Origin: Lineus longissimus
Lineage: Eukaryota; Nemertea; Pilidiophora; Heteronemertea; Lineidae
Length of the DNA stretch: 64,000 bases
Direction: 5' to 3'
Assembly: GCF_910592395.1 (NCBI RefSeq)
Contig: NC_088325.1
Span: 10,728,109-10,792,108, forward strand
The position numbers were made by a program, and so were the translations under genes. The notes under the pieces were generated by a model. The model worked only from the letters and a program-made list of their open reading frames with translations. It did no database searches and was not told the DNA's origin. Positions 29,618-64,000 of the stretch are shown in pieces (position 1 is the stretch's first letter; each line of letters opens with the position of its first letter).

Positions 29618-32600
29618 TCAAAAGCGCGTGAGTTTGATTGGGAAGTTTTCTGTGACCAGGTGATCGTCGTAAAACACTGTGACAATGTTGACCTCGAATT
29701 CTGAAAATGAATACACATGTGTTTTAAATATACATAACTTTGAATTGTCCATGCAGGCACAGCACGACACTAGTGTGAAATTGTGCGAGCAGCAAAATAA
29801 TTTAGCATACGGCATTAATATATGGGAGTTTGAATAGAAAATTATGATAATAACAATAATGATCCATGCAGGCTACATACCTATCTTAAAATTATTTGTG
29901 TACAAGGTCGGACATGTAAACAGCCTTGGAAACACCATGTATATTGGAATAGTGATCCCACGGCACACATCGCCATCTGCTATCTGGATATTCTGAATTT
30001 CTGTAGCTGAAATAACAAGACAGAAATGAGGCATGTCTACCATACAATATGTAGAATAAACCTGTACAGTTTAATATAACAATAGTAAAACAAATAAAAA
30101 GTGGCCTGGTTTGATGACGAGCAGCACAGCAAAGGAGAGTGGAACCTCCATTCACAGACATCTCTATCAAGGACATCCCTTCTATTAAGTACACTACAGT
30201 TTCGCACCAAAAGTAGTTGTTGCCATTCAATTTGACCTCTCTATTCAGGACACCTCACTAATAGGGACAGCACTTTTCAGTCCTGCGGGTGTCCATAATA
30301 GAGAGGTTCTGCTTTAGTATTTTTCAACAGGAAAGAGACAAATATCACAGTGTACAATTTCTACATTATACAAGCCCGGACAGGCATATTGAAAATATCT
30401 CTCATACCATCTTTAGCATATCCTTCTGCACAGCCACATGTCTCTACTCTCACTAACTGAAGTTCTATGGATTTGATAGGTGCTTCACTCTGGACCACAG
30501 TAAGCTAAATCACAGAAAACATAAAATGTTGTGTTAAAGGGGGACTATAGGCAGGAGCACAGGGATTATATTGGCCATTTCAGTTGACTAACATACCCTG
30601 TAAGGGCACCTGGTCATATTTGATTCAGCACTATATTCCTCGTACAAGCGTTAATAGTTTTGACTACAACTTTGAACGCAGGAGTCCTGCACAAAAATGT
30701 CAGCACTTGTGATGAATATAGAACTATAATGAGAATAGACTTCTACGGTATCCTGTGTACTTCACCACGTGTCAGTCATTTAGATAGAGTGTTAATGAAG
30801 CTAGACACACCTCTCCGGATAATGGCTTTGAAATGCAGCAAACTGTTGAGTCTAACTTCCCAGATAATTTGAAGGTTGGCACGTTGTGTTTCTGAAAGAT
30901 TGAAACCAGATATACTGTTAAGAAAAAAAAATTGTTGCAAATTTGTTACCACAAAGGATGTCCCATTTTTTTTGAAAGATCTGCCATATATACTGATATT
31001 AACATATCACAATGTTAAGTACCGGTAACAATAAACAAGTAATTTCGATTGAATGCCCTTACCTCTTTGACATTCTGTAACGTATCAGGGCTGATGGTGA
31101 AATTCATTGGTTTACATACAGCCTTTTCTTCATTTTCCTTATACTCGACAATAAATTCACACTGCTTCTGAACATCTTTGTTGAGTAATGAACGCTTCAT
31201 GTCCACTTTCAGGAGGTACTGCAAAACAAGGGGTAAAACTAGAAAACTTATTTTCAGACTTCTTTTGAAGGGGGAGGGGGGCGATTCCACGACCTAGATG
31301 CATAAGAAATTGCCTGCATACATTAGCATTCTACAGCCCACCGGGCTAGCGCATTTTTGATGAAAAATTCCAACATAATAACGGTTCTAGTGAAATTTCA
31401 AATGAGATCTCACCTGTATATTTACAAACACACCATGGTATGTCTCATATAATTTTTTTCCCTGTTTTGTCTTGAGTGGGATTTCAAAAGGGATCTCAGT
31501 CTTGCCTGACGGCAGTCGACCTGGCTTGGCAACCTCAAGCGTAACGTTCAACAGTGGAATGGGCTGAAAAAATAAAAGGAATCAAATAAAGATATTTGCT
31601 TCTGGTTAGCGGTTGAAACTTATGCTGTGGTGTCGAAATTTTTACCAAGCGCACGTCTTACTAACCTTCAATGAGTTATAAAATGCCTCGAACAGTCCCA
31701 CACTCTTTGCACTGAGTTGCAAGTTGACTGTTCCGTCCATGGTCAGTGTGACACCCTGGTGCTGAATGTCACTCTTACTCTGGATGACAACTACACCAGC
31801 CACAACCTCCTGTGAAATAGAAATGAACAACCCCAAGATTAAGTTAAAGATTGTGTCATTGGCTGGTTGGAGCGGCATGGAAAAAAGGTATAAGGGCGGA
31901 ACATAATTTGACAGTGTTTTACTCATCCTTGGTGATCCTTTGTCCGTTTACGGATTGGTAATAGACGAATTCGAAGAAGTTTGTTTTGGCGCTGACCTGA
32001 TGTGTTCTGAGTGTCAGTTGTATAGAACCCCCAGGTATATGGCACGGCTTAACCCGCCGGCCATGAGGGAATTCCTTTATGGCCCAGTGGTTGGCGCGTT
32101 GGCCCCAGAGTGGAAGTTCAGCAACGTCGAGCGCGGTCAACCTTTGGATCGGTGACCGGCGCGTACAATACATCAGTGTGCACATTAGATTTGTCTTGGC
32201 GCTGATTTGTCTTCTTTGAAAAGGTCTATGGTCCCACGTATACACGCAGTGTGAGTTTTAGTGAAGAGTGCAGATTTAGTTCTACACTACAACAGTAGGG
32301 TCCAGTCAACGAAGGATATACTGTAGTACAATAAAAGGCAAGACCACAGTGCACCGAGCACAGCTGCCTGAGCAGGCTGTCGCGTCTGGCTAAACACATC
32401 CCCCTCCCCTCCGACCCCAAGTCCATCAGATCAATCATCATTCATTCATTCAATCATTGACGACCGATAATTTTCACAACATAAAAACATCTTACACTTG
32501 GCATGTTCAGCACAAATCCTAAATATAACGACGCAGGCATAAACTTGAATATATCAAAAACCATAACACAAATATGGAAATAAATACTTGCCCCCTCATG

Positions 32601-43743: not shown

Positions 43744-46700
43744 ATGATGAAAATGAATGCCATGCTTTATTGTGTAGCATCATTTCTTGCTTCACTACCA
43801 TGGGCAGGACTTGTCTCAGGTAAGTTGCTCCGTTCCATGCATGTATCGAAACATTCCATTGTGTGACCTTGACACTGAAATTCGATTGTTCGAAAGATGT
43901 TAGTGCGAAATAAAACAAATCGCTGACGAATAAATTTGTACTGGTGCCTGTCTTGTCTGGAAGCCTGACCTCACTCCCACATCACCGTTGGTTAGCGTAA
44001 TGATCCCAATTTTCTATGTCACTTGCAAGGAAAATTTAGCGAGATATCGCACATTTTATATACATGTATGTATATGTGTGTGTAATATGCTGTACATTCG
44101 GTCACAACGTCTAGCCACACCATGGTATCTCCATGGAATAGCCAATTCGGGAAGTTGAGGGGGTTGTCGCCCGAAACGGCGTCAACTCGTCAATTGGGGA
44201 TCCTGGCTTAACTGGTTAAGTTCATACAAGAAAATATTGATACTGTCAAGCCCTACGCAGTACATACATGATGAACTACTCAAACATCAGAAACATCAGA
44301 AACGTCAGAAAGTGGCCCAGAAGTCAATAGCATTCCGCGAAAATGACGTCACTGCAGCTGCTGCCCTCTATTTCCCTATCGCTGAATTACAGGCAATGTC
44401 GGACAAACATGCGGTTTCGTAATGGATTCAGGCTTTCTAACTAGGGCAGTTAGATATAATCTGGCACATGTCTGAGTGTTGGAAATACTACATAATTGTT
44501 CTGAATATTTCTTTCTCTGACTCTATGGTATCATTCATGCTAAAAACAATGTAGGGTCAAAGATAATTAACTTTGAAATAAGCTCAAATGCGTAGAAATA
44601 AGTGTCGATGTCCGACTGTCACGAGACTAAAACGTCATCAATATCTTATGCAAATGACCTTGTGAGCTATAAATAGTAACTTTGCGGAATGCTATTTAGC
44701 CAGAGAGATGTGTGACTTGCAAAAGGAAAGAGAAAAGCGGCGACGTGTAGGCTAATACAATCTGCATGTCGTGTAGGCCCTTATCTAATCTAATCTCATC
44801 AAATCTCATCTTCCATTGCAAAATATTATCAACGTCATAACCGTTTTCAGCTAATACCAAGACAGCCTGTTATGAAGGAGTATTCTTACTGCAGGAGACC
44901 TGCACGCCAACTCAGTACATACTGATCTACTCAGTCGAAAGCCAACGAGTTAGCAGCTGCAATGATAACAGCTCGGATGCTCTGTGGTCAAGAAGCGGTC
45001 TCGCAGTCCATGTTGTCTGGGAGTGGTGTAACCTGCAAAAGGAAAGATGTTTAACTGGAAACCTATCTAACGCTACCTACTTAAGAATGAATTATACATG
45101 CGGTAAGCCCTAACGCATCCTTGCCTTCGGTTGATTGATCGAGCCTGCTGTGGCTTTGATGGCCTTCCTAAATTGTTGTCATGGTTCGATTCGATTAAGA
45201 AGACGGTATAGTAACGTACTCCACGGCATGACAGAATTTGTCCATAAACATATATATATGCGTATATACACGTATATTGAGGCATCTATGTGGCCCCGTG
45301 TTGCTTGAAGTAATGATACTACAGGGTTGCCCAGAATTATTTTCCCTTGCACAAAAAAAAATCGATTGTGTATCCTTTGTGTGAGGGAAAATATTTCTGG
45401 ACCACCCTGTAGAAACACCGTCTTGTGACTTTCATGTTTGAAGGTTTTGAAGTGCTGTTGGTATCTATTTTGGGATCTGGACGTTACAATTTCCCATATA
45501 AGGAAAAGATTTTGCATCATTTTTTAATTGAACACGTTAGCCTTATTTTCAACGTGTCCTATCATTATATCGTTAGGTAGCAATATAACTTATGATTTCA
45601 GTTAATGACTTATCTTCGATACGGCGGTTCAACATGTGCTCAGATGTAAGCGTGTTGACATCAACTCCAGTTTACCTTCAGAGCCCAGGATATCCAAACT
45701 ACACAAATTACAACAAGGCAACTAACTGCACTTGCTCTGTATCAGTGTCTCAAAACCAAACCCTCGGTGACTTCTGGTTGACACTGTATGACATGTTCAC
45801 TGGGCTGCCCGAGACACTGACTTTGAAATTGAGTAATGGTACAAATAAAAAATTAACCACTGTTGCCGATAATACGGGGTATATACTGAATCAGGAGAAA
45901 ACAAACATTTCTCCTGCTCTCTCTGTGTCGTTTGTTCCCAGGTCTCCTGGACAGGGATACTTTTGGATCGGATTAAAAAGTAGAGGTAAGTTGATGCATG
46001 TTTTTGACCATGCATGGCATTAAAAATAACATCTAGTGAAACAAAACAAAACGAACAGCAATTAATCAACGGTAGCTTCTTAGATAAAACATTTCGAATA
46101 TGGGGTATGGAATAGAAATACAAGTAAAGAATTAACAACTGTTGTTGATGATTTGTGGGGGTGTATATACTAAACCAAGAGACATCAAGCATTTCTTCGG
46201 CGCTTTTTGTGTCGTTTGTACCAAGGTTTCCTGGACAAGGATACTTCTGGATCGGATTAGAAAGCAGAGGTAAGCCATTTTCTATGCATTCCTTTAATTA
46301 TGCATGGCGCAGAACAACAGAATAAAACATTAACTACATGTACATGTACGGTAGTTTCTAAGGTCAAACATTTCGAATAGTGTTGCAGTCATATAATTGA
46401 CACAAGCAACGTCATCAGGCTGTGCATCTCCGATAACCTTTGCTCATTTAAGTTGTGATCATAATGCATAATATTATGGAAAATATATGTTGTAACAAGC
46501 TCGGGCAATGTAAGCTGACTGCAAGTTTTAAAGAAGCACTTAGCGATTCGAAGGTTAGATACGTCGCGAAGCCTTCTACCAGTGTACCGTTTTTTAATGT
46601 TTCCGTTTCGGAGTGTTTCTCCTAATCATTTGGGAGCGCTGTAGTGAAAAAGAAGATCAACACGTCTTTCACTGTTCTCCCCTATTCATGAGAAGTTATG

Positions 46701-49700
46701 GTCTTCCTAGCTATCTGTTGTACGGAAACACTAATAAATGGGAACAACGAAAATGCTACACGAACCGTGTTACGCAGGTCGTGTTCCTGATTAATAATAC
46801 CATTATTTTGGTCAAAGACTCGATAACATTTTCCATAATCAATCCGTTATTCATAGGCTAAACATTCAGTTGATGTAGCTGTAGCAATTGTTGATTTCAA
46901 ATATTCAGCTCCCGTAAACATAGCAATTACCTGCAATGAGGGGCTGGGAACTTCACCGACTTTACCACCTACCACTTCGACAACGTCGGTGACAGCAAAG
47001 AATACGACGACGACGACAGCAGCATCTACGAGCACAACAACTACGACAACTAATGAAACAAAAACATCGGCAACGGTGACGAATACGACACCGAGCGAAG
47101 TAACACCAGTATGTTTTTTTTTCATTTCTCTAAAGTGATGACATGGGTCACATGCCCGTTAAGTGATCTACAACAGATTGATCACGTTTCGAACAACGTG
47201 GCTCCTGGGTCATGCTGACTGAGAAATAGCAGATTGAACGCTTTTTGAACACTGAAATCGAGTCAACCTGGTTTATATATGCCAAAACCTGATTTCTTTA
47301 ACATTTCTTTTAGCGCGGCTGCAATTTTCATTAACTCACGTGGTATTGCCAGGTCAGAATATTTAATTGTATTTACCTTTTTAAACATATAAAGGCTATG
47401 CAACCTGACAAATATAGCAAGCGATAGAAAACGTACATGTTAGTTGAGTAAATTAAAGTCAAATCCGCGGATAGCCCAGTTCTCATATCTTTTACTCCCC
47501 AGGCTGCAGTCGGGATGACGGAAGATGACCTTAAAACCATCTACACTGTGGTACCTTTATGTATTTTGGTCATTGCGATCATTATTTTAATTGTTATCGT
47601 AGTCAGGATCATGTAAGTAGAAAATAGGATAAGATTCCATACACTCATGGAAAGTTTGAGTGATGTCAGTTTGAATTCTTGTCAGACTGATGTCAAAAAT
47701 AGGCACCAATAGGCAATTGCAAATTTAACAAACGAGTCAAGATTTGTTTCTGTGTGTGTGGACATTTGTCAACGTGGCGTCAAATTCACATTTGGCTAAA
47801 TTGGTGTCCAGTGAGGTTTGTCAGAGTTTGATGCCCTATATAATCTTCAGAATAAAGACCTTTGAGGTCATTCGAGGGTTTTCAGCTAGCAAGTGAGTGG
47901 CACCCTTTAGGGGGTTTTCAGAGAATTGAAAAACCGCGAAAGGTGATCAATATGAATGCCTACATACGATAATTCTTTTTCTCCGACTAGCTCCTAGGAT
48001 GCGCGTTGTCACTTGTCACATGACATTTGTCACTTGTCACATACCACGTGTCACATGGCACATGCCATTTGTCACTTGGCATATGCCACTTGCCACATAT
48101 CACATTCCACTTGTCTCATGGCACATGTCACTTGTATCATGGCACATGTCACTTTTCGCATGGCACATGTCACTTGTCACTTGTCACTCGTCAAAGCATG
48201 TTCGATAATTGGCTAAGAATTCAGACAATTTTATCTTATTCTTTATCTCTTCCTAAGGCGACGAAAGTATCCAAGTGAAGACGTTTATGAAACACCAATA
48301 CCGATGAGTAATACCCCTACCGTGGCAGGTAATTTTTGTTTTTATATTTGTTTTGTGATTTTAATGACCGAAATCTTCTTTTGAAAATGTACATCGTACA
48401 TGCATATGATAAAATAAAGTTTTTTAATTTTTTAATTTTTTAAAGCAACATGTAGCAAGCACGAATTGGTATACGCTTGCTTATAGTTAAATAGTATGCA
48501 TTGGGCAGATATTTTGAGGTACATTTGAAATTTTTCAAAATAAATTTTTCAAAGACAAAGTCTGTTTGGCATTCATTGTTGACATGATTGAGATATGTCA
48601 ATAGCGCCGGTTTGAACAAGAAAAACGTTCTTCAGAGAAGGAAGTTATTTTCTTAGTTATAGACTCATCGATGTGTATGATAATCTGCATTGATTTTTTA
48701 TTGACCGAATAAAGCTTTAAGGTGATCTAGTCAACTTTAGGTAATTTTTGTTTATATATTTGTTTTGTGTTTTTAAGGATCAAAATCTTTTTTTGATTAT
48801 GTACATCGCACATGCATGTGATAAAATAAAGTTTTTTAATTTTTTAAAGCAATTTGTATGTATTAAGCACGAATTGGTATACGCTTGCTTATAGTTAAAC
48901 AATATACAATGGGCAGATATTTTGAGGTACATTTGAAATTTTTCAAAATAAGTTTTTCAGAGACAAAGTCTGTTTGGTATTCATTGTTGACATGGTTCAG
49001 ATATGTCAATAGCGCCGGTTTAAAATAGAACAAAATCGTTAGACAAGGAAGTTCTTTTCTTAGTTATAGACTCATCGATGTGTGTGATAATCTGCATTGA
49101 GTTTTATTGCCCGAATAAAGCTTTAAGGTGATCTAGTCTACATTATGTGCTCAACATGTCACGCTCAGACGTAAAAGTAAAGGAATCAAAACATGTCTTA
49201 TTAATAGCCAAACACCACGAATACATGTACATGTACTGTTAGTCATTGCTATAGCTCAGCCGACTGTGAGTTACATCTTTGACAACTTTAATTCAATGAT
49301 ACGCTCTATCCGAGGACAGTTTCACTTTCTCAAAGTCCTGCCTTTTTCGACAATCTCATGACACTTATAAATTTGGTAAGCTCTCTATCTCTGAATACAC
49401 AGGCGTTCTGAACTTTCTATTTATTGATTTCAAATCATGACAGGCAATAATTTATTATTGTAAAGCCGCCCCGCAGGTAGAATCTGGTCAACTCATTAGG
49501 GATTTAGATTGTATTAAACGACGCGACGAACTTTTTCCTGCAGATCCAAATGTCTATTGTGACCTCGGCATCACGAACCCAGCCAATGATGAACGAGATT
49601 ACTACAACATGTCCCCAGCCAATGGGGCTGCTTTGTACGAAAACGTTGTGACAGGCAGACCAGTGGCGCACGAGGCGGACTACGCAATTCTCGATGCTGG

Positions 49701-49854
49701 AGTCGGAGCTATGGCAGCTCACGATGAAAGCTGCGGGCCTGATGTGACAGAGGCGAATATTGGCACGGCTGGTCAGGTGGAATACTGCTCGATTCCTCAC
49801 AGGGAGAGGAGCTCGACCGAAAACACTGACGCGGATTACGAAATTCCAGATTAA
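43744..49854 (+). CDS. Receptor R1: SUEL-like + CUB-like type I membrane receptor with multi-tyrosine tail, 7 exons, 467 aa
   Basis: Exons: 43744-43819, 44851-45102, 45602-45985, 46909-47108, 47503-47612, 48258-48328, 49544-49854. The total is 1,404 nt and all are in phase. Exon 1 is a signal peptide (SFLASLPWAGLVS; ATG 43744 or 43747). Exon 2 is a six-cysteine domain from TACYEGVF to YLRMNYTC, resembling SUEL/galactose-binding lectins. Exon 3 is CUB-like (YLQSPGYPNY, NCTCSVSVS, LTLYDMF, GYFWIGL). Exon 4 is a Thr-rich stalk with NET/NTT sequons. Exon 5 is the membrane helix (PLCILVIAIIILIVIVV). Exons 6-7 form the tail with VYETP, VYCDL, YYNM, LYENV, DYAIL, VEYCSI and DYEIP. VEYCSI fits the ITIM consensus and YYNM resembles the CD28 PI3K/Grb2 site. 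The tail is unrelated to that of R2/R3 although the ectodomains are paralogous. Signalling function is inferred. Confidence 0.85.
44326..44696. mobile_element. MITE family 2, copy 2 (371 bp)
   Basis: Same length as the copy at 5786-6156, same AATAGCATTCCGC/GCGGAATGCTATT ends and scattered point differences only. It lies in intron 1 of receptor R1. Confidence 0.85.
46107..46269 (+). pseudogene. Truncated second CUB-like exon in R1
   Basis: The 3' part of a CUB exon is repeated here: AAAGAATTAACAACTGTTG, then YILNQET, VSFVPRFPGQGYFWIGLESR and an intact GTAAGC donor after 46269. The 5' half, with its first cysteines and acceptor, is absent, and a frame change lies near 46157-46165. It is most likely a relic of a tandem exon duplication. 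Confidence 0.7.
48010..48192. repeat. 21-bp minisatellite in R1 intron 5
   Basis: About nine units of the form CATGGCACATGTCACTTGT, each 21 bp, with scattered changes. The period keeps all three frames open and produces spurious ORFs. It ends about 65 bp before the next R1 exon. Confidence 0.85.
48328..49142. repeat. Tandem duplication of about 412 bp in R1 intron 6
   Basis: GTAATTTTTGTTT starts at 48329 and again at 48741. The two units match through GCACGAATTGGTATACGCTT and TAGACTCATCGATGTGT to GGTGATCTAGTC. The first unit starts exactly at the donor of exon 48258-48328, so the donor-like sequence is duplicated, but no second coding exon accompanies it. Confidence 0.8.
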
Positions 49855-49976
49855 GTAATATGACAGTTGACGAGCATGGATGCAATTAAAGCAGAGCCGA
49901 ACTATAATTGCAGAAATCTGATGATGAAAACAGTACCAGTATCAGCTAGTACCTTAAATTATCTTATCGTCGCACG

Positions 49977-49982
49977 AATAAA
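49977..49982 (+). promoter_or_regulatory. Candidate poly(A) signal of R1
   Basis: AATAAA 123 bp past the R1 stop codon, in a suitable 3' UTR position. Confidence 0.6.
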
Positions 49983-51002
49983 GCTTGCGAAACTAGAGAT
50001 ATCAACAATTACCCTAACAATCTCCACTTCTTGACAAAACGTTTCCCACCTCTTCAGAGTCGGCCCTTTGTGGATTGGCGATACGACCATAATCAATCGC
50101 TGTTCGAAATTCCCCATTCATGATATCGGCAGACATGAAGCTATTCCCATTTCGTCAGAGAATAAGGGGTGGCCCAATTCGGGTCATGTATTCGTAGCTA
50201 GCCATGGGAAACGCCCTTAATGCTATTGATATTGAGAAGTTTCCCAGGACATAGCGTGACCGAAATGTGTGGTCGTGTCTCATGAACTCATTCAAGCATA
50301 CACAGAGTGAATCCGAAAACAATGGATGTACTTTTAGTTTCGCACAAACTATTTGAAGTTTCAAACGAAGATGACAAGACTTAAGTTTGTTTATATTGTA
50401 GTGTTAAGTCCACTGAAATTCAAAGGTCAAAATGGGATGAAACGGATCCCGGCATACGATTTTTGAACGGAATTGATAGGACTACGAATCCATTGCTTCT
50501 TCCAGGCCCTTGAAAGTGTATTGATATCCAATACATCATTGACATAGAAATACCCACATGACCATACAGTCCATTAAAAACGGTTCGGTGTTATTAGTTA
50601 AAATCGGAGTTTTAAAGTTGTCTTCCTTCTTTGGATTGTAAACAAGTTCCTTGACATTTGCTACTTCGAAGCGTGCATAAGAACATGGACTGTATCTTTG
50701 TGAGAAGTTGATTTGACCGAGGCGGTACTATATGCGTAAAAGGCTATGGAGGATGATTAAAAAGCCGATGACAGATTTGTTGATGACAAGTTTAGATCAC
50801 GATGTCATGATGGGATCATTGTATCATCAAGAGGCGAATAATAATGTACTAGCAGTACTACGCTCAAGTGAAGGCATTTGTTAATAATGAAGAGAATTCT
50901 CGACTTGGATTTCATATAATTTCCGAGCAGCACGACAGAAAGACAATACACCAGGATACTAAAGGTCAGGTCATCTTCCCATGACTACGGAGATGACCAA
51001 GC

Positions 51003-54000
51003 ATGTTGAGCACCGTCAAGATGAGGACTGCTACTGCCGCGTTCACCATTTCTTTTCTATCACTGGCAGCACTCAGCTGTGGTAAGTTAAATTACCTGAC
51101 CTAAACGAGTCGATATAGATCTGCACAATAATGGTACACTTTTTAGTGTGGTTAATCAGGAATTACTTTTGAAAGATGCCGGTTCTACTTCACAATCGAA
51201 TAACCTTCTATCGACCCATCAAATTGTATCTGACATGCTGGATTCAAAAATTATTTTACGGCTCAAAAGATATGTGCTGAGAGTTGTCTTATGAAACGAA
51301 ATATCAATTTAATTTAAATACTTTGTACTGATGTGAGTAGGCTTATACTCAGTCTTCATGGCAAGTCAGGGATAATCTAATCTTCCATTGCCAAATTTAT
51401 TTTGACATCATTAACCTTTCCAGCTAACACCACGACAGCCTGTTATGGAGGAGGATTCTTACTGCAGGAGAACTGCACGCCAACTCAGTACATACTGATC
51501 TACTCAGTCGAAAGCCAAGAAGTTAGCAGCTGCAATGAAAACAGCTCGAATACTCTGTGGTCAAGAAGTGGTCTCGCAGTCCATTTTGCCTGGGAGTTGT
51601 GTAACCTGCAAAAGGAAAGATGTACAACTGGAAACCTATCTAACGCTACCTACTTAAGAATGAATTATACATGCGGTAAGCCCTAACACACCTTCTCCTT
51701 GCGTCGATTAGGCATGATGTGGCTCGGTAGGATCCAGAAGTCAATCCAAAAGGCGCTTGGTTAATTTTAACATGAATCGTTGTCATGATTTGATTGTCTT
51801 CCATATAAAGGAGACAGGGTGTGCAGTCTCATACTCCGAGATATGATGGAAATTAGTCAAAAGATATATAGTACATGTATGAAGCGTTCCGGTGGCCCTA
51901 TGTTCCTTTACTACTAATAGTGAAACACCGTATTGTGACTTTCATGGCTGAAGGTGAACAGTTACAGTAACCGTTTTTCAATTAAACACCTTCTTTTTAC
52001 TTACAAATGTGTGATATCATTACATCGTTACATATGAATAAAACTTATGCTTTCAGTTAATGACTTATCTTCAATACGGCGGTTCAGCATGTGCTCAGAT
52101 GTAAGCGTGTTGACATCAACTCCGGTTTACCTTCAGAGCCCAGGATACCCAGGCTATTATAACTACACCAACGCAACAAACTGCACTTGCTCTATATCAG
52201 TGTCTCAAGACCTAACCCTCGGTGATGTCTGGTTGACACTGTATGACATGTTCACCCAGCTGCCAGAGACACTGACTTTGAAATGGAGTAATGGTACAGG
52301 TAAAGAATTAACCACTGTTGCCGATAATAATTCGGGATATATACTGAATCAGGAGACAACAAACATTTCTCCTGCTCTGTCTGTGTCGTTTGTTCCCAGG
52401 GCTCCTGGACTAGGATACTTTTGGATCGGATTAGAAAGTGGAGGTAAGTTGTTGCATGTTTTTGACCATGCATGGCATTAAAAATAACATCTAGTGAAAC
52501 AAAACAAAACGAACAGCAATTAATCAACGGTAGCTTTTTAGATAAAACATTTCGAATAGTGTAGTGGTAGATCAACACTACGTCATCAGGCTTATTAAAA
52601 CATCTTCGAAAACCTTAGCTCGTAAAAGTTGTGACAATGACGAATAACATAGAATAAAATAGCTGGTGTAATTAGCTCGTGTAGTAACCAAACTCACGTT
52701 TCTGAAAAAGCACGACCAATTCAAAAATTTGATACGTCGCCCTGCCTTTTACCAGTAAATGTTTTTGAGTGTTTCAGCGCGTGTGTTCTCCCTCAGCTAG
52801 ACACGTTTTCTCTCTTACCCGAACTGAAAAGCCGTTGTCTCTCTAGTTTTTTATTGTATGGAAACACTGATGAGCTATGAGAACAACCAAAAACATAACA
52901 GCAGTCATTTTACAAAGATTGTGTCGCTGATAAATGATGTCCCATTTCTCGGTCACTCAGACCCAATGACATTTCCATATCATCATCATTCCGTTAATTA
53001 TTGGCTTAACATTCACTGACTGTTGATGTAGCTGTAGCATTTGTTAATTTTAAATTTCAGCTCCTCTAAACATATCGATAGCCTGCAATGAAAGCTCGGG
53101 AACATCAACGACCTTACCACCTGCCACTCCGACAACGTCGGTGACAGCAAAGAGTACGGCAACGACAGTAACTAATGAAACAAAACCATCTGCAACGGCG
53201 ACGAATACGGACACCACAATGGCGACAGGGACTCCAAGCCCTGGAAAACCGGTACGTTTTTTTAAATGTTCCCTCTGAATGATAACAAAAGGTCATGTCG
53301 ATATATTTTGAAGTATGCAAGGTTGATGACAATTCGAACATTTCTATCGGGTCAACCTGCCTCATGCCACAAACCTATTACTTCGTTTTAACTTCCTACT
53401 GCTTCGTGATAATCGCCAGGTCAGAGTATTCATGTACCTCGGTAACGTAGAAAGTACATGTTTTTAGTTAGTTCGTGGAAGCCAAAGTCACGAATAGCTC
53501 AGTTCTCATAACTTCTTCTCCCCAGGCTGCCATCGTGATGGCGGAAGACGACCTAAAAACCATCTACATTGCAGTACCTACTGTGGTCATAGCGATCATT
53601 ATCATCATTGTTATCGTTGTCATAGTCAAGTAAGTAAAAGTAAAAATGATATCTTTGGATAGAATGTCTGGTGATGCCGATTCGACAAGTCATCTTGTCA
53701 GACTAATGCCAAAAAGGATAGACATCCCTGCAGTGTCTGGCGTAACCCAACTCTTGATCTTTTTTATAAAGTGAAGGACGAGTCTAGCTGTACAAAAAAT
53801 AAAGATATTTTTCTTCCGGCGATGTCCACTTGACCCCAAATCGATGTCGCCTATGTCGGTGGCACCCTCGGGAGGTTTTTCGGAGAATTGGAAAACCACT
53901 ATTTTGATGTGGTGAAAACCCTTAACGGACAATTCATAATTCTAGAAAAACCTCTACGGCCGGTGTAACAGTAACAAATGCCCCCCCCCCCCCCTGGAAA

Positions 54001-55574
54001 AAGTGTCCGGCCCTATTTTATTCTGCAATATGGTCCTGACCGTCAATAGCTCCGAGATTGAAGCGCATAATAGAATCCTTTGTGTCCCGGGCATTCTCTC
54101 CTAGGACATTTTAAACTTCTACACCGGCTGCTTGAGTTGGCTGAATACCCTAAAAGATATTCAAAAAAGCTTAAAACCTCTTTATTTTGTAAGAATTTGG
54201 ATATAACCAGATTTTTGTGTGGGGCGATGTCCATGCAGAGACATTTGGACTGCATTAATCCCTCAGACTAAAGCCCGCGGATACACAGGAAATTCGTTCT
54301 CAAAGTTCGATACGTAAGCTTCCACATCGCCCCAAAAGGTTGGTTGGACCGGCAGCACAGGCGTGTGGTTAACTCAGTCTGCAAATCCGATTGACTATAT
54401 CGCGATCAGTACCTGCTTGTATCTCGGTCTTCTGCTCAAAAGAACCCAAACTATTCAAATCGCTGCGATTACCTTATTACCAATTTAAATCGCATATGAC
54501 AATAACCGTTTTGCGGTGGTCATCGAAGGTCCTTGCGACAGTGATTAATCTCTCGTCAGCAGGTTCGATCAGATGATATTTAACCAAAATTCGTCATAGC
54601 AAGTTGTACTGGAATGTATTGTTAGTACTTGCCAAACTTTGCCTAGTGACACTGATGACCCACTTTTCTTCCACAGGAAGTGGCAGAAATCAAACCACGC
54701 CAAGTTTGAAGACACGGTTAGGTTTAGTGTCCCAGACTACGGGGTGGAGAGCCTGTACGCCAAGGAGAACTTCGCCATGGATATGGTTGACAATGAAATC
54801 TACGAATCACAGGATAGCTTAGGAAATGGTAGCCTATCGGGGCCCGTGTCGTCGCACGGAGTGGGTGTTGCCTTCGGTACGTTCAAAGGTGAGAAAGTTC
54901 GCCAGACGTCAAATGAGGAATTGACTGACAACGGAGAAGAGAAGGATGTACACAGGGGGATGATTCCGCTGCCAAGGTCTGTAACATTTGGTGGCGAGGA
55001 TTTATTGTTAGGGGTCGGGGCTGCAGTGCCCTCTGACGGTGGCGAAGTGATTTACGCCCAGATCAACAAACCTGAGAAAAATAAAAACCCGGAAGATGAC
55101 CGAGTTCAGGGTCAGACTTCTATCCTAAGACCTAGCCATTCAAATGAACGCCAAGATCAGCTAGTGTCCGATTCAAATCCGGTTGAAAAAGAAACAGACT
55201 ACTCATTAGCAGACGATTTTGATGACCCGAACAAGTACTTTGAATATGACGTTGGTTCAAGGTCAAATGATGGTGAAGATGCTGATGTTGACTATGCATA
55301 TGCGTACGCACGCAGAGGCAGAGGAACCTCGAAACGACGTGAGCCAGAAGAAAGTGTACGCATTTACGACGACATAGAAAGCGATGATTCTGAATTTGCT
55401 GAGTCGGATATCGATGGAGTCTTTCGGGAGGCTATTGAACCTCAACTTGAGCTCAGCAGTCATGAAACTGAGTGTGCAGACGGGATTACAGACTATGACG
55501 AGTTGGACTTGGAGGGCCAGAAGCACAAGAGGCAACTTGACGATATCGTACATGTGCAAAGAACTGATCTTTAG
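51003..55574 (+). CDS. Receptor R2: SUEL-like + CUB-like receptor with ITIM tail, 6 exons, 636 aa
   Basis: Exons: 51003-51081, 51424-51675, 52057-52443, 53061-53251, 53526-53629, 54677-55574. The total is 1,911 nt and all are in phase. Order: signal peptide (TISFLSLAALSC), six-cysteine SUEL-like domain (TACYGGGF to MNYTC), CUB-like domain (YLQSPGYPGYYNYTN to GYFWIGLESGG), short Thr/Ser-rich stalk, membrane helix (AVPTVVIAIIIIIVIVVIV), and a tail of about 300 residues in one exon. The tail is acidic and has the canonical ITIM VIYAQI (Tyr codon 55053-55055) plus YxxI/L-type sites RIYDDI and TDYDEL and a Tyr/Ala run (DYAYAYA). ITIMs recruit SH2 phosphatases in known receptors, so an inhibitory role is a reasonable inference. 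Intron 5 carries an insertion of about 545 bp, including a MITE, that R3 lacks. No lesions are seen. Confidence 0.87.
53960..54127 (+). mobile_element. MITE family 1, copy D
   Basis: CCGGTGTAACAGTAACAAAT to CTTCTACACCGG, the closest match to copy A, apart from a poly(C) expansion at 53981-53994. It lies in R2 intron 5, inside a segment missing from R3. Confidence 0.8.
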
Positions 55575-55833
55575 GTAGGAAGTCGCGGGCGTCACAAACA
55601 TGCAGCAAAGGATCATCTAAAAATAGGTCGAAACCAGAATATATAATTTTTGAAGAGAGACTAATGTAAGAACGAAATAATCTATTCAGATGTGTACAGT
55701 CTATTTCTTTATTATTCTTATGGCACATTGAATTGATATTTCAATTTTCATACAAGTATCGTTGCATTGACCTTGTATGTTTTTTATGTAACAATAATAG
55801 GCTCCGTAGCCCTTTGTGAATGTTTCCAGCCAC

Positions 55834-55839
55834 AATAAA
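55834..55839 (+). promoter_or_regulatory. Poly(A) signal of R2
   Basis: AATAAA about 260 bp past the R2 stop. The same motif is conserved after R3. Confidence 0.65.
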
Positions 55840-57434
55840 GAATTTAATCGAATTAAGCTGCTGGTCGCTGACTGAATTCAAAATTGTATTCCAGAATTCG
55901 TTCATAACGCCCCTTTGATTATCCTTTTACCATGATGACCCCCCCCCCCCCTCCAGCATAGTTTTTGTACATGACCAGGTTTCCAGACAAACGGCTCCAT
56001 CAGGAATGCATTTTTATCTATTTAGAAAATTAAATTATTATTTCAATTTTTGCACAACGTTTAAGAATGTATGTGTGTTATTATTCATTTTTTAGCTCTC
56101 ATTATGTCATCTGTCGCCAGTTCTAACCGGTTGGCAACTTGAGTTCTTCCCTCAAGAAAAATGCCTCCAAAGAAATTTGTATTCGACCTTTCAATTCGTA
56201 GTTCAATCCTGCAGGCAACTTAATTTGTATACTGTTAACCAGACAAGCTACATATAAATAAATTGATGAAGACATACCATTTTTAGCTTTTTCGTCTTCA
56301 AAATTCATTGATTGTTACAGCAACAACACTTGGAATGGATCCAGTACATGTTCATCTATATATACAGTAGATACAATGCTTAATGTTTCACTGTTGAAAC
56401 TAGCTTAAGCAACAATTACTCCGAAAATCTCAACTTGGTCATTGACAAAACTACTCCCACCTCGCCAGAGTAGGCCTATTGTGGATTGGCGATACAACCA
56501 TAATAAATCGTTGTTCGAAATTCCCTGTTCATGACATTGGCAAGCATGAAGCTATTCCCATTTCGTCAGAGAATAAGGGGTCGACCATTTCGGGTCATGT
56601 ATTCGTAGATGGTGATTGAAAACACAATTAATACTATTGATATTGAGACGTTTTCCCAGGACATAGCATGACCGAAATATGTGGTCGAGTGTCATGAACT
56701 CATTCAAGCGTGCACAGAGTGAGTCAGAGATCAATGGATGTGCTTTTGGTCTCACGCGAACTATTTGAAATTTCAAAAGAAGACGACAACACTCAACTTT
56801 GCAAGGTGTTTGTATTGTAGTGTAAAGTCAACGAAAATATCATGGTCAAGATAAGATGAAAGGGGTGGTTCTAAAGAATTCGATTTTTAAAATAAATTGA
56901 TAGGACTACGAATGCAAATGCTTAATGTAGGCATATAGGTGTATGCGTATTGATATCCAATATATCATGGACATAGAAATACCCACATGACCATACAGTC
57001 CATTAAAAACGGTTTGATGTTATTGGTAAACATCAGAGTTTCGAACTTCTCTTCCTTCTTGGGATTGTAAACAAGTTTCGTTACATTTGCTGCTTCGAAG
57101 CCTGCATACGAACGTGGACTGTATCTTTGTGAGAAGTTGATTCGACCGGGGAGGTACTATATGCATTGACGGCTATGGAGGATGATTAAAAGCCGATGAC
57201 TGATTTGTTGAAGACAAGTTTAGATCACGATGTCTTGATGGAGTCATTGTATCATCATGAGGCGAATGTTCATGTACTAGCAGTAATGCGCTCAAAGTGA
57301 AGGCATTTGTTAATAAATATGAAGAGAATTATCGACTTGGATTTCATATAAATTCCAAGTAGCACGACAGAAAGACAATACCCCAGGATACTAAAGGTCA
57401 GGTCATCTTCCCACGACTACGGAGGTGACCAAGC

Positions 57435-60400
57435 ATGTTGAGGACCGTCAAGATGAGGACTATTATTGCTGTGTTCATCATTTCTTTTCTACAACTGGCA
57501 GCACTCAGCAGTGGTAAGTCAAATTACCTGAACTAAACGATAGAGATTTAAACAATAATGGTACACTTTTTAGTGTAGTCAATCACTTACTTCTGATAAG
57601 ATGTCGGTTCTGCTTGACGATCGAATGACCTTCTATCGACCTGGCGAACTGTTTCTGACATGCTGGATTCAATGAGAAATTATTTTCAGGCGCAAAAGAT
57701 ATGTGCTGAGAGTTGTCTGATGAAACGAAAGATCAATTTAATGTAAATACTTTGTACTGATGTGAGTAGGCTTATATTCAGTCTGCATTTCAAGTAGGTC
57801 CTAATCTTATTTTCTATTACCAAATTTATTCCGACATCACTAACCTTTCCAGCTAATACCACGACAGCCTGTTATGTGGGAAGATTCTTACTGCAGGAGA
57901 ACTGCACACCAACTCAGTACATACTGATCCACTCGGTCGAAAGCCAAGAAGTTAGCAACTGCAGTGAAAACAGCTCGAATACTCTGTGGTCAAGAAGCGG
58001 TCTCGCAGTCCATTTTGCCTGGGAGTGGTGTAACCTGCAAAGGGAAAGATGTACAAATGGAACCCTGCCTAACGCTACCTACTTAAGAATGAATTATACT
58101 TGCGGTAAGCCCTGACACTCCTTCTCATTGCGTCGATTAGGCATCCTGTGGCTTCGGTAGGATCCAGAAGTCCATCCAACAGACGCTTGGTTAATTTTAG
58201 CCTGAATTGTTGTCATGATTAGAATGTCTTCCATATAAAGGAGACAGGGCGTGCAGTCTCATACTCCGAGACATGATGGAAATTAGTCAAAAGATATATA
58301 GTACATGTATGAAGCGTTCCGGTGGCCCTATGTTGCTTTACTACTAAGAGTGAAACACCGTATTGTGACTTTCATGGCTGAAGGTGAACAGTTACAGTAA
58401 CCGTTTTTCAATGAAACATCTTCCTTTTACTTACAAATGTGTGATATCATTACATCGTTACATATGAATAAAACTTATGCTTTCAGTGAATGACTTATCT
58501 TCGATACGGCGGTTCAACATGTGCCTAGACCTAAGCGAGGTGATATCAACTCCAGTGTACCTGCAAAGCCCAAGATATCCAGGCTTTTATGGCTACACCA
58601 AGGGAAGAAACTGCACTTGCTCTATATCAGTATCTCAATACCAAACCCCCGGCGACTTCTGGTTGACACTGTATGACATGTTCACCCAGCTGCCCGAGAC
58701 ACTGACTTTGAAATTGAGTAATGGTACAAGAAAAGAATTAACCACTGTTGCCGATAATGATTCGGGATATATACTGAATCAGGAGACAACAGACATTTCC
58801 TCTGCTCTCTCTGTGTCGTTTGTTCCCAGGTTTCCAGGGCAAGGACGCTTTTGGATCGGATTAGAAAGTACAGGTAAGTTATTACATGTTTGTGATCGAC
58901 CATGCACTGCATTAAAAATAACATCTAGTAAAACAAAACCAAACGAACAGTAATTAATTAACAGTAGCTTTTTAGATAAAACATTTCGAATAGTGTAGTG
59001 GTAGAACAACACTACGTCATCAGGCTTATTAAAACATCTTCGAAAACCTTAGCTCGTAAAAGTTGTGACAATGACGAATAACATAGAATAAAATAGCTGC
59101 TGTAATAAGCTCGTGCCGTAACCAAACTCACGTTTCTGAAGAAGCACGACATGTTCAAAGATTTGATACGTCGCCCTGCCTTTCACCAGTAAATGTTTTT
59201 GAGTGTTTCAGCCCGTGTGTTCTCCCTCATCGAGTGAGAATTCTGAAAGACAGATAGACATGTGTTCTCCTATTTCCCGAACTGAAAAGCCCTTGTCTCT
59301 CTAGTTTTCTACTGTTTGGAAACACTGATGAGCTATGAGATCAACCAAAAACATAACACAAGTCATTTTACAAAGATTGCGTCGCTGATAAATGATGTCC
59401 CATTTTTGTCATTCAGATCCAATGACATTTTCCATATCATCATCATTCCGTTAATTATTGGCTGAACATTCACTGACTGTTGATGTAGCTCTAGCATTTG
59501 TTAATCTTAAATTTCAGCTCCTCTTAACATATCGATAACCTGCAATGAAATTTCGGGAACATCAACGACCTCACCACCTGCCACTCCGACAACGTCGGTG
59601 ACAGCAAAGAGTACGCCAACGACGGCAACTAATGAAACAACAACACCGACCACAAAAACAACCACAACTAATGAAACAGCAACTACGGAGACAACAGCGA
59701 CGACAACTAATGAAACAACAACACCAACCACAAAAACAACCACAACTAATGAATCAGCAACTACGGAGACAACAGAGACGACAACTAATGAAACAACAGC
59801 ACCAACCACAAAAACAACCACAACTAATGAAACAGCAACTACGGAGACAACAGCGACGACAACTAATGAAACAAAAACAACTGCAACGGCGACGAATACG
59901 GACACAACAATGGTGACAGGGACTCCAAGCTCAGGAAAACCGGTTCGTTTTGTTTTTTTTAATTTTCCCTCTGAATGATACCAAAATATCATGTCGATAT
60001 ATTTTGAGATATGGAAGGTAGATGACTTTTCGAACATTTCTATCGGGTCAACCTGCCTCATGCCAAAAACCTGTTACTTCGTTTGAAACTTCCTACTGCT
60101 TCGTGATAATCCTCAGGTCAGAGTATTTATGTACCTCGGTAACGTAGAAAGTACATGTTTTAGTTAGTTCGTGGAAGCCAAAGTCACGAATAGCTCAGTT
60201 CTCATATCTTCTTCTCCCCAGGCTGCTATCGTGATGGCGGAAGACGACCTAAAAACCATCTACATTGCGGTACCTACTGTGGTCATAGCGATCATTATCA
60301 TCATAGTTATCGTTGTCATCGTCACGTGAGTAAAAGTAAAAATGATATATTTGGATAGAATACCTGGTGATGCCAATTGGACAAGTCATCTTGTCATAAG

Positions 60401-61852
60401 ACAAGTCATAATGCCAAAAAGGATAGACATCCTGCAGTGTCTGGCGTAACCCAAACTCTTGATCTTTTTTATAGCGTGAACGACGAATCTAGCTGTACAA
60501 AAAATAAAGATGATTTTTTCCGGCGATGTCCACTTGACCCCAAAGAGATGTCCATTTTATCATTGGGGTTTACGGGTCCAGAGACGCTTATCGAGAGTTG
60601 GACACTCTTCAAAAACAATGGTCTTCGAAGTTTTGGAATCATTATTAAGTATTCAGCCAATAAAAAAATGACACCCTCTGGAGGTTTTTCAGAGAATTGG
60701 AAAAACCCCAGAGTATTTTTTTTTGATGTGGTGAAAACCCTTATTACCGATTTAAATCGCATATGACAATAACTGCTCTTTGCAGTGTTCATCGAAGGTC
60801 CTTGCGACAGTGATTGATCTCTCGTCAGCGGGTTCGAGCAGATGATATTTAACCAAAATTCGTCATAGTAAGTTGTACTGGAATATATTGTCAGTACTTG
60901 CCAAACTTTGCCTAGTGCCACTGATGACCCTCTTTTCTTCTACAGGAAGCGGCAGAAATCAAACCACGCCAAGTTTGAAGACACGGTTAGGTTTAGTGTC
61001 CCAGACTACGGGGTGGAGAGTCTGTACGCCAAGGAGAACTTCGCCATGGATATGGTTGACAATGAAATCTACGAATCACAGGATAGCTTAGGAAATGGTA
61101 GCCTATCGGGGCCCGTGTCGTCGCACGGAGTGGGTGTTGCCTTCGGTACGTTCAAAGGTGAGAAAGTTCGCCAGACGTCAAATGAGGAATTGACTGACAA
61201 CGGAGAAGTGAAGGATGTACACAGGGGGATGAGTCCGCTGCCCAGGTCTGTAACATTTGGTGGGGAGGATTTATTGTTAGGGGTCGGGGCTGCAGATCCC
61301 TCTGACGGTGGCGAAGTGATTTATGCCCAGATCAGCAAACCTAAGAAAAATAAAAACCCGGAAGATGACCGAGTTCAGGGTCAGACTTCCATCCTAAGAC
61401 CTAGCCATTCAAATGAACGCCAAGATCAGCTAGTGTCCGATTCAAATCCGGTTGAAAAAGAAACAGACTACTCATTAGCAGACGATTTTGATGACCCGAA
61501 CAAGTACTTTGAATATGACGTTGGTTCAAGGTCAAATGATGGTGAAGATGCTGATGATGACTATGCATATGCGTACGCACGCAGCTGCAGACGAGGGATA
61601 GGAACCTCTAAACGACGTGAGCCACAAGAAAGTCTACGCATTTACGACGACATAGAAAGCGATGATTCTGAATTTGCTGAGTCGGATATCGATGGAGTCT
61701 TTCGGGAGGCTATTGAACCTCAAATTGAGCTCAACGGTCATGAAACTGAGTGTGCAGACGGGATTACAGACTATGACGAGCAGGACTTGGAGGGCCAGAA
61801 GCACAGGAGGGAAATTGACGATATCATACATGTGCAAAGAACTGATCTTTAG
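57435..61852 (+). CDS. Receptor R3: SUEL-like + CUB-like receptor with long mucin stalk and ITIM tail, 6 exons, 717 aa
   Basis: Exons: 57435-57513, 57853-58104, 58487-58873, 59518-59942, 60222-60325, 60946-61852. The total is 2,154 nt and all are in phase. The architecture is the same as R2: signal peptide (FIISFLQLAALSS), SUEL-like domain, CUB-like domain (YLQSPRYPGFYGYTK), stalk, membrane helix and ITIM tail (VIYAQI, Tyr codon 61322-61324). The stalk exon is 425 nt against 191 in R2 because of a 78-bp coding minisatellite. By eye the tail is about 95% identical to R2, the SUEL-like domain about 88% and the CUB-like domain about 79%. R2's TDYDEL is TDYDEQ here, so that YxxL site is lost. A few residues are inserted after YAYAYA. 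The gene is open and looks functional. Confidence 0.87.
59629..59862 (+). repeat. 78-bp coding minisatellite in the R3 stalk
   Basis: Three in-frame 78-bp units start at 59629, 59707 and 59785. Each encodes 26 residues made of two related 13-residue halves (TNETTTPTTKTTT and TNETATTETTATT). Each half has an NET N-glycosylation sequon in a Thr-rich, O-glycosylation-prone context. R2 has a single TNET at this place. Confidence 0.9.
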
Positions 61853-62112
61853 GTAGGAAGTCGCGGGCGTCACAAACATGCAGCAAAGGATCATCTAAAA
61901 ATAGGTCAAAACCAGAATATATTACTTTCTAAAGAGAGACTAATGTAAGAACGACATAATCTATTCAGATGTGTACAGTCTATTTCTTTATTATTCTCAT
62001 GGCACATTGAATTTATATTTCAATTTTCATACAAGTATCGTTGCACTGACCTTGTATGTTTTTTATGTGACAATAATAGGCTCCGTAGCCCTCCGTAGCC
62101 CTTTGCAGCCAC

Positions 62113-62118
62113 AATAAA
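62113..62118 (+). promoter_or_regulatory. Poly(A) signal of R3
   Basis: AATAAA about 260 bp past the R3 stop, in the same context as the R2 signal. Confidence 0.65.
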
Positions 62119-63710
62119 GAATTTAATCGAATTAAGCTGCTGGTCACTGACGGAATTCAAAATTGTATTCCAGAATTCGTTCATAATGCCCCTTTGATTA
62201 TCCTTTTTCCCTGATGACCCACCCCCCTCCAGCATAGTTTTTGTACATGACCAGGTTTCCAGGCAAACGGCTCCATCAGGAATGTATTTTTATTTATTTA
62301 GAAAATTAAATTATTATTTCAATTTTTGCACAACGTTTAAGAATGTATGTGTGTTATTATTCATTTTTTAGCTCTCATTATGTCATCTGTCGCCAGTTCT
62401 AACCGGTTGGCAACTTGAGTTCTTCCCTCAAGAAAAATGCCTCCAAAGAAATTTGTATTCGACTTTTCAATTCGTAGTTCACGCCTGCAGGCAACTTAAT
62501 TTGTATACTGTTAACCAGACAAGCTACATATAAATAAATTGATGAAGACATACCATTTTTAGCTTTTTCGTCTTCAAAATTCATTGATTGTTACAGCAAC
62601 AACACTTGGAATGGATCCAGTACATGTTCATTTATATATAAAGTAGATACAATGCTTAATGTTTCACAGTTGAAACTAGCTTAAGCAACAATTACTCCGA
62701 AAATCTCAAATTAGTCATTGACAAAACTACTCCCACCTCGCCAGAGTAGGCCTATTGTGGATTGGCGATACAACCATAATAAATCGTTGTTCGAAATTCT
62801 CTGTTCATGATATCGGCAGGCATGAAGCTATTCCCATTTCGTCAGAGAATAAGGGGTCGACCAATTCGGGTCATGTATTCGTAGCTGGCGATTGAAAACA
62901 CCATTAATACTATTGATATTGAGAAGTTTTCCCAGGACATAGCATGACCGAAATATGTGGTGGTGTCTCATGAACTCATTTAAGCGTGCACAGAGTTAAT
63001 CCGGGGTCAATGGATGTGCTTTTGGTATCACACAAACTATTTGAATTTTCAAACGAAGACGACAACACTCAACTTTGCAAGGTGTTTGTATTGTAGTGTA
63101 AAGTCAACGAAAATATCATGGTCAAGATAAGATGAAACGGGTGGTTCTAAAGAATTCGGTTTTTAAAATATATTGATGGGACAACGAATGCAAATGCTTA
63201 ATGTAGGCCTATGGGTGTATGCGTATTGATATCCAATATACCATGGACATAGAAATACCCACATGACCATACAGTCCATTTAGAACGGTTCGATGTTATT
63301 GGTTAACATCAGAGTTTCGAACTTCTCTTCCTTCTTGGGATTGTAAACAAGTTTCTTTACATTTGCTGCTTCGAAGCCTGCATAAGAACGTGGACTTTAT
63401 CTTTGTGAGAAGTTGATTCGACCGGGGAGGTACTATATGCGTAAAAGGCTATGGAGGATGATTAAAAGCCGATGACTGATTTGTTGAAGACAAGTTTAGA
63501 TCACGATGTCATGATGGGATCATTGTATCATCATGAGGCGAATGTTCATGTACTAGCAGTAATGCGCTCAAAGTGAAGGCATTTGTCAATAAATATGAAG
63601 AGAACTCTCGACTTGGATCTCATATAAATTCCAAGCAGCACGACAGAAAGACAATACCCCAGGATACTAAAGGTCAGGTCATCTTCCCACGACTGCGGAG
63701 GTGACCAAGC

Positions 63711-63789
63711 ATGTTGAGGACCGTCAAGATGAGGACTGCTATTGCTGTGTTCATCATTTCTTTTCTATCACTGGCAGCACTCAGCAGTG
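63711..63789 (+). CDS. Receptor R4, first (signal peptide) exon; gene continues past the window
   Basis: A 79-nt exon ending in a GTAAGT donor encodes MLRTVKMRTAIAVFIISFLS plus LAALSS, almost identical to the first exons of R2 and R3 and with the same phase. The following intron also matches up to the window edge. The remaining exons lie outside. Confidence 0.85.
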
Positions 63790-64000
63790 GTAAGTTAAAT
63801 TACCTGACCTAAACGAATCGATATAGATTTGCATAATAATGGTACACTTTTTAGTGTGGTCAATCAGCAAATACTTCTGATAAGATGTCGGTTCTGCTTG
63901 ACGATCGAATGACCTTCTATCGACCTGTGTCGAACTGTTTCTGACATGCTGGATTCACTTACAAATTATTTTCAGGCGCAAAAGATATGTGCTGAGAGTT

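Follow-up and report, generated by a model that had tools for sequence, protein, structure and literature searches.

A tandem array of five look-alike type I receptor genes with two tail types in the ribbon worm Lineus longissimus

Introduction

Receptor pairs with one type of ectodomain on two opposing tails have been found in the literature for vertebrates. Siglec-11/Siglec-16 and CEACAM1/CEACAM3 combine similar ectodomains with unlike tails, and the likeness is kept by gene conversion, according to excerpts of two reports (PMC5701461, PMC2832619). The FcoR of Botryllus are type I proteins of 520-610 amino acids with immunoglobulin (Ig) and sushi ectodomains. Many are encoded in one locus, the locus controlling fusion and rejection, with 53 loci reported. 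The tail can carry an immunoreceptor tyrosine-based inhibitory motif (ITIM), a hemITAM (ITAM, immunoreceptor tyrosine-based activation motif) or a single YxxI/L/V motif. Besides these ITIM/ITAM-type recognition receptors in a tunicate, candidates have been reported in Hydractinia (excerpts of PMC12065747). The locus described here is an array of five tandem receptor genes, R1 to R5, of the nemertean Lineus longissimus. It begins in a stretch of 64,000 nucleotides, the window (NCBI RefSeq assembly GCF_910592395.1, contig NC_088325.1, here C19, positions 10728109-10792108). The assembly searched comprises 391,118,348 bases, C19 15,888,539.

Neighbouring genes of the array carry one type of ectodomain on two types of cytoplasmic tail, and the similarity between both kinds of gene is centred on the ectodomain exons. 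An original prediction, made from the letters of the window, had suggested a tandem family of recognition receptors. The array itself was confirmed, and the interpretation as a whole was partly supported. Its view that the combination of parts is not a described family agrees with the present results: the genes encode type I receptors in tandem for which no described family was found. No paper on the family was found in a literature search that covered few subscription journals. In a paper on immunity of Lineus ruber, the words CUB, rhamnose and SUEL are absent from the main text (PMC9835746).

Structure of the array

R1 to R5 are look-alike type I receptor genes on one strand within 31.5 kb. 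The units are spaced 6.3-6.6 kb apart, and their tandem arrangement is evident at the DNA level. R1, R2 and R3 are complete inside the window, which includes only the leader exon of R4. After 40 kb downstream had been read, R4 was placed at 63711-68478 and R5 at 71090-75216, in coordinates continued from the window. The predicted minimum of four genes is correct; the array has five, with R4 completed and R5 situated just beyond the window. No further copy lies between R5 and position 104000 (28.8 kb past R5), and no array copy lies upstream of R1 within the window. The features in window positions are:

43744-43819, + strand: R1 exon 1, encoding a signal peptide that R2-R5 do not share; also leader of the NCBI isoform P0003 of R3
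44851-45102, + strand: R1 exon 2, six-cysteine SUEL-like domain, phase 1-1
45602-45985, + strand: R1 exon 3, CUB-like domain, phase 1-1
46164-46271, + strand: R1 intron 3, 3' half of a CUB-like exon preserved as a relic, outside the gene model; a donor-like gt follows (by eye)
46909-47108, + strand: R1 exon 4, Thr-rich stalk
47503-47612, + strand: R1 exon 5, membrane helix, strongly diverged from R2-R5 at synonymous sites
48258-48328, + strand: R1 exon 6, start of the cytoplasmic tail
49481-49854, + strand: R1 exon 7, tail with many tyrosines, found nowhere else in the genome
50031-51002, + strand: R2 5' flank, common to R3 (56442-57434) and R4 (62718-63711)
51003-51081, + strand: R2 exon 1, signal peptide
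51424-51675, + strand: R2 exon 2, six-cysteine SUEL-like domain
52057-52443, + strand: R2 exon 3, CUB-like domain
53061-53251, + strand: R2 exon 4, Thr-rich stalk
53526-53629, + strand: R2 exon 5, membrane helix
54677-55574, + strand: R2 exon 6, tail, long and acidic; GEVIYAQI is its one ITIM-form motif
57435-57513, + strand: R3 exon 1, signal peptide
57853-58104, + strand: R3 exon 2, six-cysteine SUEL-like domain
58487-58873, + strand: R3 exon 3, CUB-like domain
59518-59942, + strand: R3 exon 4, stalk with a 39/78-bp minisatellite (59618-59879)
60222-60325, + strand: R3 exon 5, membrane helix
60946-61852, + strand: R3 exon 6, R2-type tail
63711-63789, + strand: R4 exon 1, signal peptide; remainder beyond the window

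The splice sites in the gene models of R1 (488 amino acids, seven exons), R2 (636 amino acids, six exons) and R3 (717 amino acids, six exons) are of consensus type, and the exon phases fit together. In all three models, as predicted, exons 2 and 3 are of phase 1-1. The R2 model is identical, letter for letter, to the NCBI protein of LOC135502468 (P0001, 636 amino acids). R4 and R5 likewise equal the database proteins P0004 and P0002, and the R3 model equals P0003 apart from the leader. Each protein consists of a signal peptide, a six-cysteine domain, a CUB-like domain, a Thr-rich stalk, a membrane helix and a tail, in this order. The stalk comprises 52 residues in R2, 55 in R1, 130 in R3, 135 in R5 and 157 in R4, and the database names 'mucin-like' and 'adhesin-like' probably reflect it. 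Matches of stalk and membrane helix to the Pfam families TMEM154, DUF1180 and RIFIN were below the cut-off and probably stem from composition.

About 1 kb of 5' flank is common to R2, R3 and R4 at 86-95%. No copy of this flank before R1 appeared among the 20 of 32 repeat families listed. R1 intron 5 contains a 21-bp minisatellite (48006-48187).

Probable exchange of ectodomain exons

Exons 2 and 3 of R1 share 78-90% protein identity with R2-R5, and the R1 leader has 32-36% identity to the other leaders. The synonymous divergence (dS) of R1 to R2-R5 is 0.039-0.102 in exon 2 and 0.120-0.203 in exon 3. Among R2-R5, the corresponding values span much the same range, 0.059-0.146 and 0.129-0.222. 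The membrane exon of R1 differs from R2-R5 with a dS of 0.54-0.81, calculated on only about 26 synonymous sites.

Informative sites group the genes differently in exons and introns. In exons 2 and 3, 44 sites join R1 with R2 and 31 join R2 with R3; introns 2-4 together with exon 5 give counts of 36 and 326 (Fisher p = 6.6e-19 against exons 2 and 3). Sites shared by R1 and R2 against R3 occupy 31 of 384 columns in exon 3 and seven of 333 in intron 2. Right behind exon 3, an identical R1/R2 run of 75 bp is located in the intron (46004-46078). In the quartet R2-R5, exons 2 and 3 yield no consistent grouping (8:8), and introns 2 and 3 join R2 with R3 (65:5; p = 1.9e-4). In R5, the exon 4 start is R1-like (94% identity) and the tail R2-type (88% to R2). 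In five of six pairs, divergence is greater in exon 3 than in the tail exon (p < 0.05).

These data support a gene conversion centred on the exons, which would keep the ectodomains of both gene kinds alike and shuffle variants between copies; the reading derives from one genome, by site counts and dS rather than by a formal recombination program. The earlier suggestion that ectodomain exons can be swapped gains support from both the site grouping and the synonymous divergence. Purifying selection alone, without any conversion, may be proposed to hold exons 2 and 3 of R1 close to R2-R5. Since constraint acts on exons but not on introns, it must cause part of the exon/intron contrast. It leaves unexplained a dS that is low in exons 2 and 3, yet high in the coding membrane exon, as well as the 75-bp identity within an intron. 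The R1/R2 sites, frequent in exon 3 and rare in intron 2, also speak against this proposal, which is very improbable.

Cytoplasmic tails

The R1 tail contains nine tyrosines, seven of which have L/I/V/M/P at position +3 (expected 2.3, p = 0.0014; about 0.02 after correction for 15 tests). Its motifs include YxxM, YxN and one ITIM-form motif; no ITAM was found in it. The tail has no relative elsewhere in the genome. R2-R5 carry the other type, and GEVIYAQI or DEVIYAQI is present in all four tails. This conservation adds little, since the R2-type tails are 87-94% identical anyway. One ITIM-form motif per tail is within chance for R1, R2 and R3, so an enrichment in ITIMs was rejected for these genes, and the label 'ITIM-type tails' of the original prediction is weak.

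Six-cysteine domain

The domain encoded by exon 2 resembles SUEL/rhamnose-binding lectins (PF02140; latrophilins, CSL3) in keeping six of the eight cysteines in order, in an I.I strand after cysteine 2 and in a C-terminal YL...Y.C strand. Unlike SUEL proteins, it has no match to Pfam SUEL at E up to 10, neither with three native exons nor with the consensus or three divergent relatives. In the same assay, 76 bits were obtained for a known SUEL domain. The motifs YGR (with its GR) and DPC and the cysteines 4 and 7 are absent in the array exon 2 alignments. Of 22 SUEL matches in the genome, 12 Lineus exons were read; the GR motif occurs in all 12, as do cysteines 4 and 7, and DPC in seven. YGR and DPC are the canonical sugar-binding motifs of SUEL domains.

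Profile comparisons depended on their depth. The best-powered test aligned seven exon 2 sequences (without R4) with the 12 genomic SUEL exons and six known domains. The score of 20.59, with the aligned stretch in the right register, was reached by none of 400 full shuffles and by two of 400 cysteine-keeping shuffles. In the first runs of this test, one of 100 shuffles was as good in each of four sets. Borderline tests had 10 and 28 of 300 or three and two of 200 shuffles as good, and shallow tests failed (at least seven and at least eight of 200; 242-509 of 1000). Structure prediction for exon 2 alone gave a predicted local distance difference test (pLDDT) of 42.1, and a fold search with this model is not evidence. 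WD-40 proteins obtained in a PDB sequence search with exon 2 were an artefact of summed repeats.

The exon 2 domain is probably SUEL-derived, judged from cysteine pattern and profile. The predicted six-cysteine, SUEL-like character is retained with regard to the cysteines and the best-powered shuffle test, not with regard to Pfam. The label 'lectin' is not warranted because the canonical sugar-binding motifs are gone.

CUB-like domain

Exon 3 shares with CUB domain proteins (PF00431) the start SPGYP...NC.C and the register of the first part. It differs from them by scores below the Pfam cut-off and by an extra cysteine in NCTC; the second canonical CUB cysteine pair is presumably absent. Sub-threshold Pfam CUB matches were obtained for R1 (E 0.0098) and R2 (E 0.038), none for R3 exon 3 and none for any of five divergent relatives. 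The exon 3 consensus covered positions 1-95 of the 110 in the profile, with E 0.0054 and 17.5 bits against a cut-off of 21.4.

Eight exon 3 sequences were compared as a profile with six genuine Lineus CUB exons. The latter came from seven loci fetched of 148 matches; one was dropped due to a stop in frame. The score was 22.95 over 33 columns, in register, and the best of 200 shuffles attained 20.43. The chromosome of the array has none of the 148 CUB matches listed. Several dozen CUB exon matches are packed in 26 kb at C13:1755257-1780772. A PDB sequence search with exon 3 gave no match. The AlphaFold model of the full P0001 was unusable (pLDDT 30.0). Foldseek with this low-confidence model listed a few CUB chains in the 50 rows shown, none with E <= 0.001, and is not evidence. 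The sequence comparisons support, if weakly, a divergent CUB-like domain in exon 3. The predicted name 'CUB-like' can stand on the profile score, which exceeds all 200 shuffles, and not on Pfam, where all matches remain below cut-off.

Extent of the family

The family was searched in about 5.8 billion proteins with a single sequence (806 candidates) and a five-sequence profile (7,995 candidates sharing most words scored). No relative outside Lineus longissimus was obtained and only four Lineus proteins appeared at E <= 10, the content of other nemerteans in the database not being counted. In the genome, the exon 2 consensus detected eight exons at E <= 1, five of them in the array. Of the three outside, C20 carries one (42% identity) and C19 two at 14.10 Mb (38% and 31%). 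The exon 3 consensus had 22 matches. Eight fall at the places detected with exon 2, one is the intron 3 relic of R1 and 13 are weaker.

At the three outside places (two in C19:14094000-14103200, one in C20:4495400-4499600), a six-cysteine exon is followed by a CUB-like exon with phase-1 borders, read by eye. Downstream open frames encode a membrane helix at all three and, at two, a Thr-rich stalk as well. Because the exon pair occurs at these three places, it would be a building block that predates the array, and the array would have expanded recently. Clusters of weak exon 3 relatives with no convincing exon 2 were observed at C19:12.90-12.98 Mb and C19:10987513-10988689.

Proposed function and its alternatives

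The best explanation considers R1-R5 as tandem type I membrane receptors, with ectodomain exons of phase 1-1 each, on a variable Thr-rich stalk. Two kinds of gene would use one ectodomain type: R1 with its own leader and a tail rich in tyrosine motifs, R2-R5 with a long acidic tail. Exon-centred conversion would keep the ectodomains of both kinds alike and reshuffle variants between the copies. The ligands of the ectodomains would be related surface molecules, of foreign or own origin. Phosphorylated tyrosines would signal, with an outcome differing between the two tails as in paired immune-type receptors. Receptor signalling, a paired function and a role in immunity or self-recognition are thus putative. 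The explanation as a whole, a converted five-gene array with two tail kinds and paired-receptor-like signalling, has about an even chance of being correct.

Several results count against it. In the R2-R5 quartet test, exons and tail behave alike (p = 0.50). The divergence of exon 3 exceeds that of the flanking introns in one of six pairs only (R2-R3). Diversifying selection on exon 3, considered for the R2-R3 excess, was therefore dropped once R4 and R5 had been added. The pooled pN/pS ratio (nonsynonymous to synonymous differences) of R2-R5 is below one throughout: leader 0.98, exon 2 0.68, exon 3 0.64, tail 0.51 and membrane exon 0.43. Single pairs exceed one in exon 2 (four of 10) and leader (three of six), with few changes. 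These pooled data show no positive selection, which is a point against receptors for gametes or for self and non-self (fertilisation, graft) instead of anti-microbial defence. Such receptors would fit a family found in one species only and a tandem array with exon shuffling, and the similarly built tunicate FcoR act in allorecognition (excerpts of PMC12065747). This role is quite unlikely.

Further counter-evidence concerns the tails. Tyrosines with L/I/V/M/P at +3 number three of 12 in R2 and two of 12 in R3, which is the chance level. The predicted 'tyrosine-motif tails' fit R1, whose tail is rich in such motifs and differs from those of R2-R5; the tails of R2 and R3 are not enriched. Surface glycoproteins of adhesion or glycocalyx would agree with this lack of enrichment. 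They would be tandem duplicates with a small ectodomain on mucin-like stalks, their tails serving for anchoring or trafficking and not for a choice between activating and inhibiting signals. Thr/Ser-rich stalks of 52-157 residues, the minisatellite growth within a stalk and the mucin-like and adhesin-like names, which probably originate from the stalk, point in the same direction. Glycoproteins of this type do not need the long R2-R5 tails, 87-94% identical to each other, or the motif-rich R1 tail, and they leave the sharing of ectodomains across two tail types unexplained. The glycoprotein interpretation is rather doubtful.

The status of R1 is the remaining difficulty for paired receptors. 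The NCBI isoform P0003 (X2) joins the R1 leader (43744-43819) to R3 exons 2-6 (57853-61852) and skips the bodies of R1 and R2. The R1 tail occurs in no database protein, in a search over proteins of 0.55-1.75 times the length of R1. R1 as a separate gene is hence without transcript support. P0003 may reflect genuine splicing between genes of the array, or reads mapped wrongly among near-identical exons. Taken at face value, it suggests that the R1 leader is an alternative first exon of R3 and that the remaining R1 exons are unused or decaying, to which a genomically unique tail and the relic exon in intron 3 would also conform. R1 nevertheless has all seven exons intact, with splice sites of consensus type and phases that fit. 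Its membrane exon is in frame, with a nonsynonymous divergence (dN) of 0.31-0.35 at the high dS given above, its tail is motif-rich, and mis-assigned reads could yield P0003. A dependent R1 is unlikely.

A more specific form of the paired-receptor explanation would be a protostome system on a SUEL-derived and CUB ectodomain. R1 would have an adaptor-recruiting tail and the other four genes ITIM-type tails. Exons would be copied continually and leaders possibly spliced between genes, giving variety in the germline and at the transcript level. This form is put forward tentatively, as a possibility of modest weight.

Neighbouring features

Membrane transporter exons are located at 3819-8745 on the minus strand. 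Of two exons tested, one has a match to Pfam Sugar_tr above the cut-off, and the transporter is one we take to be SLC22-like. Exon sets at 20328-24538 (minus strand) are duplicated in tandem about 1.95 kb apart, one exon having a sub-threshold Ig-domain match. An exon with a sub-threshold Vps26 match lies at 31642-31947 (minus strand).

Comparison with known systems

FcoR and the array proteins have in common the type I build, the location in one locus and a long tail that can carry tyrosine motifs, as far as the excerpts of PMC12065747 describe FcoR. Unlike the Ig and sushi ectodomains of FcoR, those of R1-R3 had no Ig or sushi match listed in Pfam, apart from one weak row for the bacterial Ig-like Big_4 (R3 exon 3, E 0.14).

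The small mapped locus of five genes suits tests of ligand, tail function and exon conversion. As in the vertebrate paired receptors outlined in the excerpts of PMC5701461 and PMC2832619, neighbours in the array share an ectodomain type on unlike tails (R1 versus R2-R5) and have a signature of conversion. Vertebrate pairs differ by Ig ectodomains and by activating versus inhibitory tails; the array combines a six-cysteine with a CUB-like domain and belongs to a protostome. If true, a paired-receptor design with an unrelated ectodomain in a ribbon worm would suggest an independent origin.

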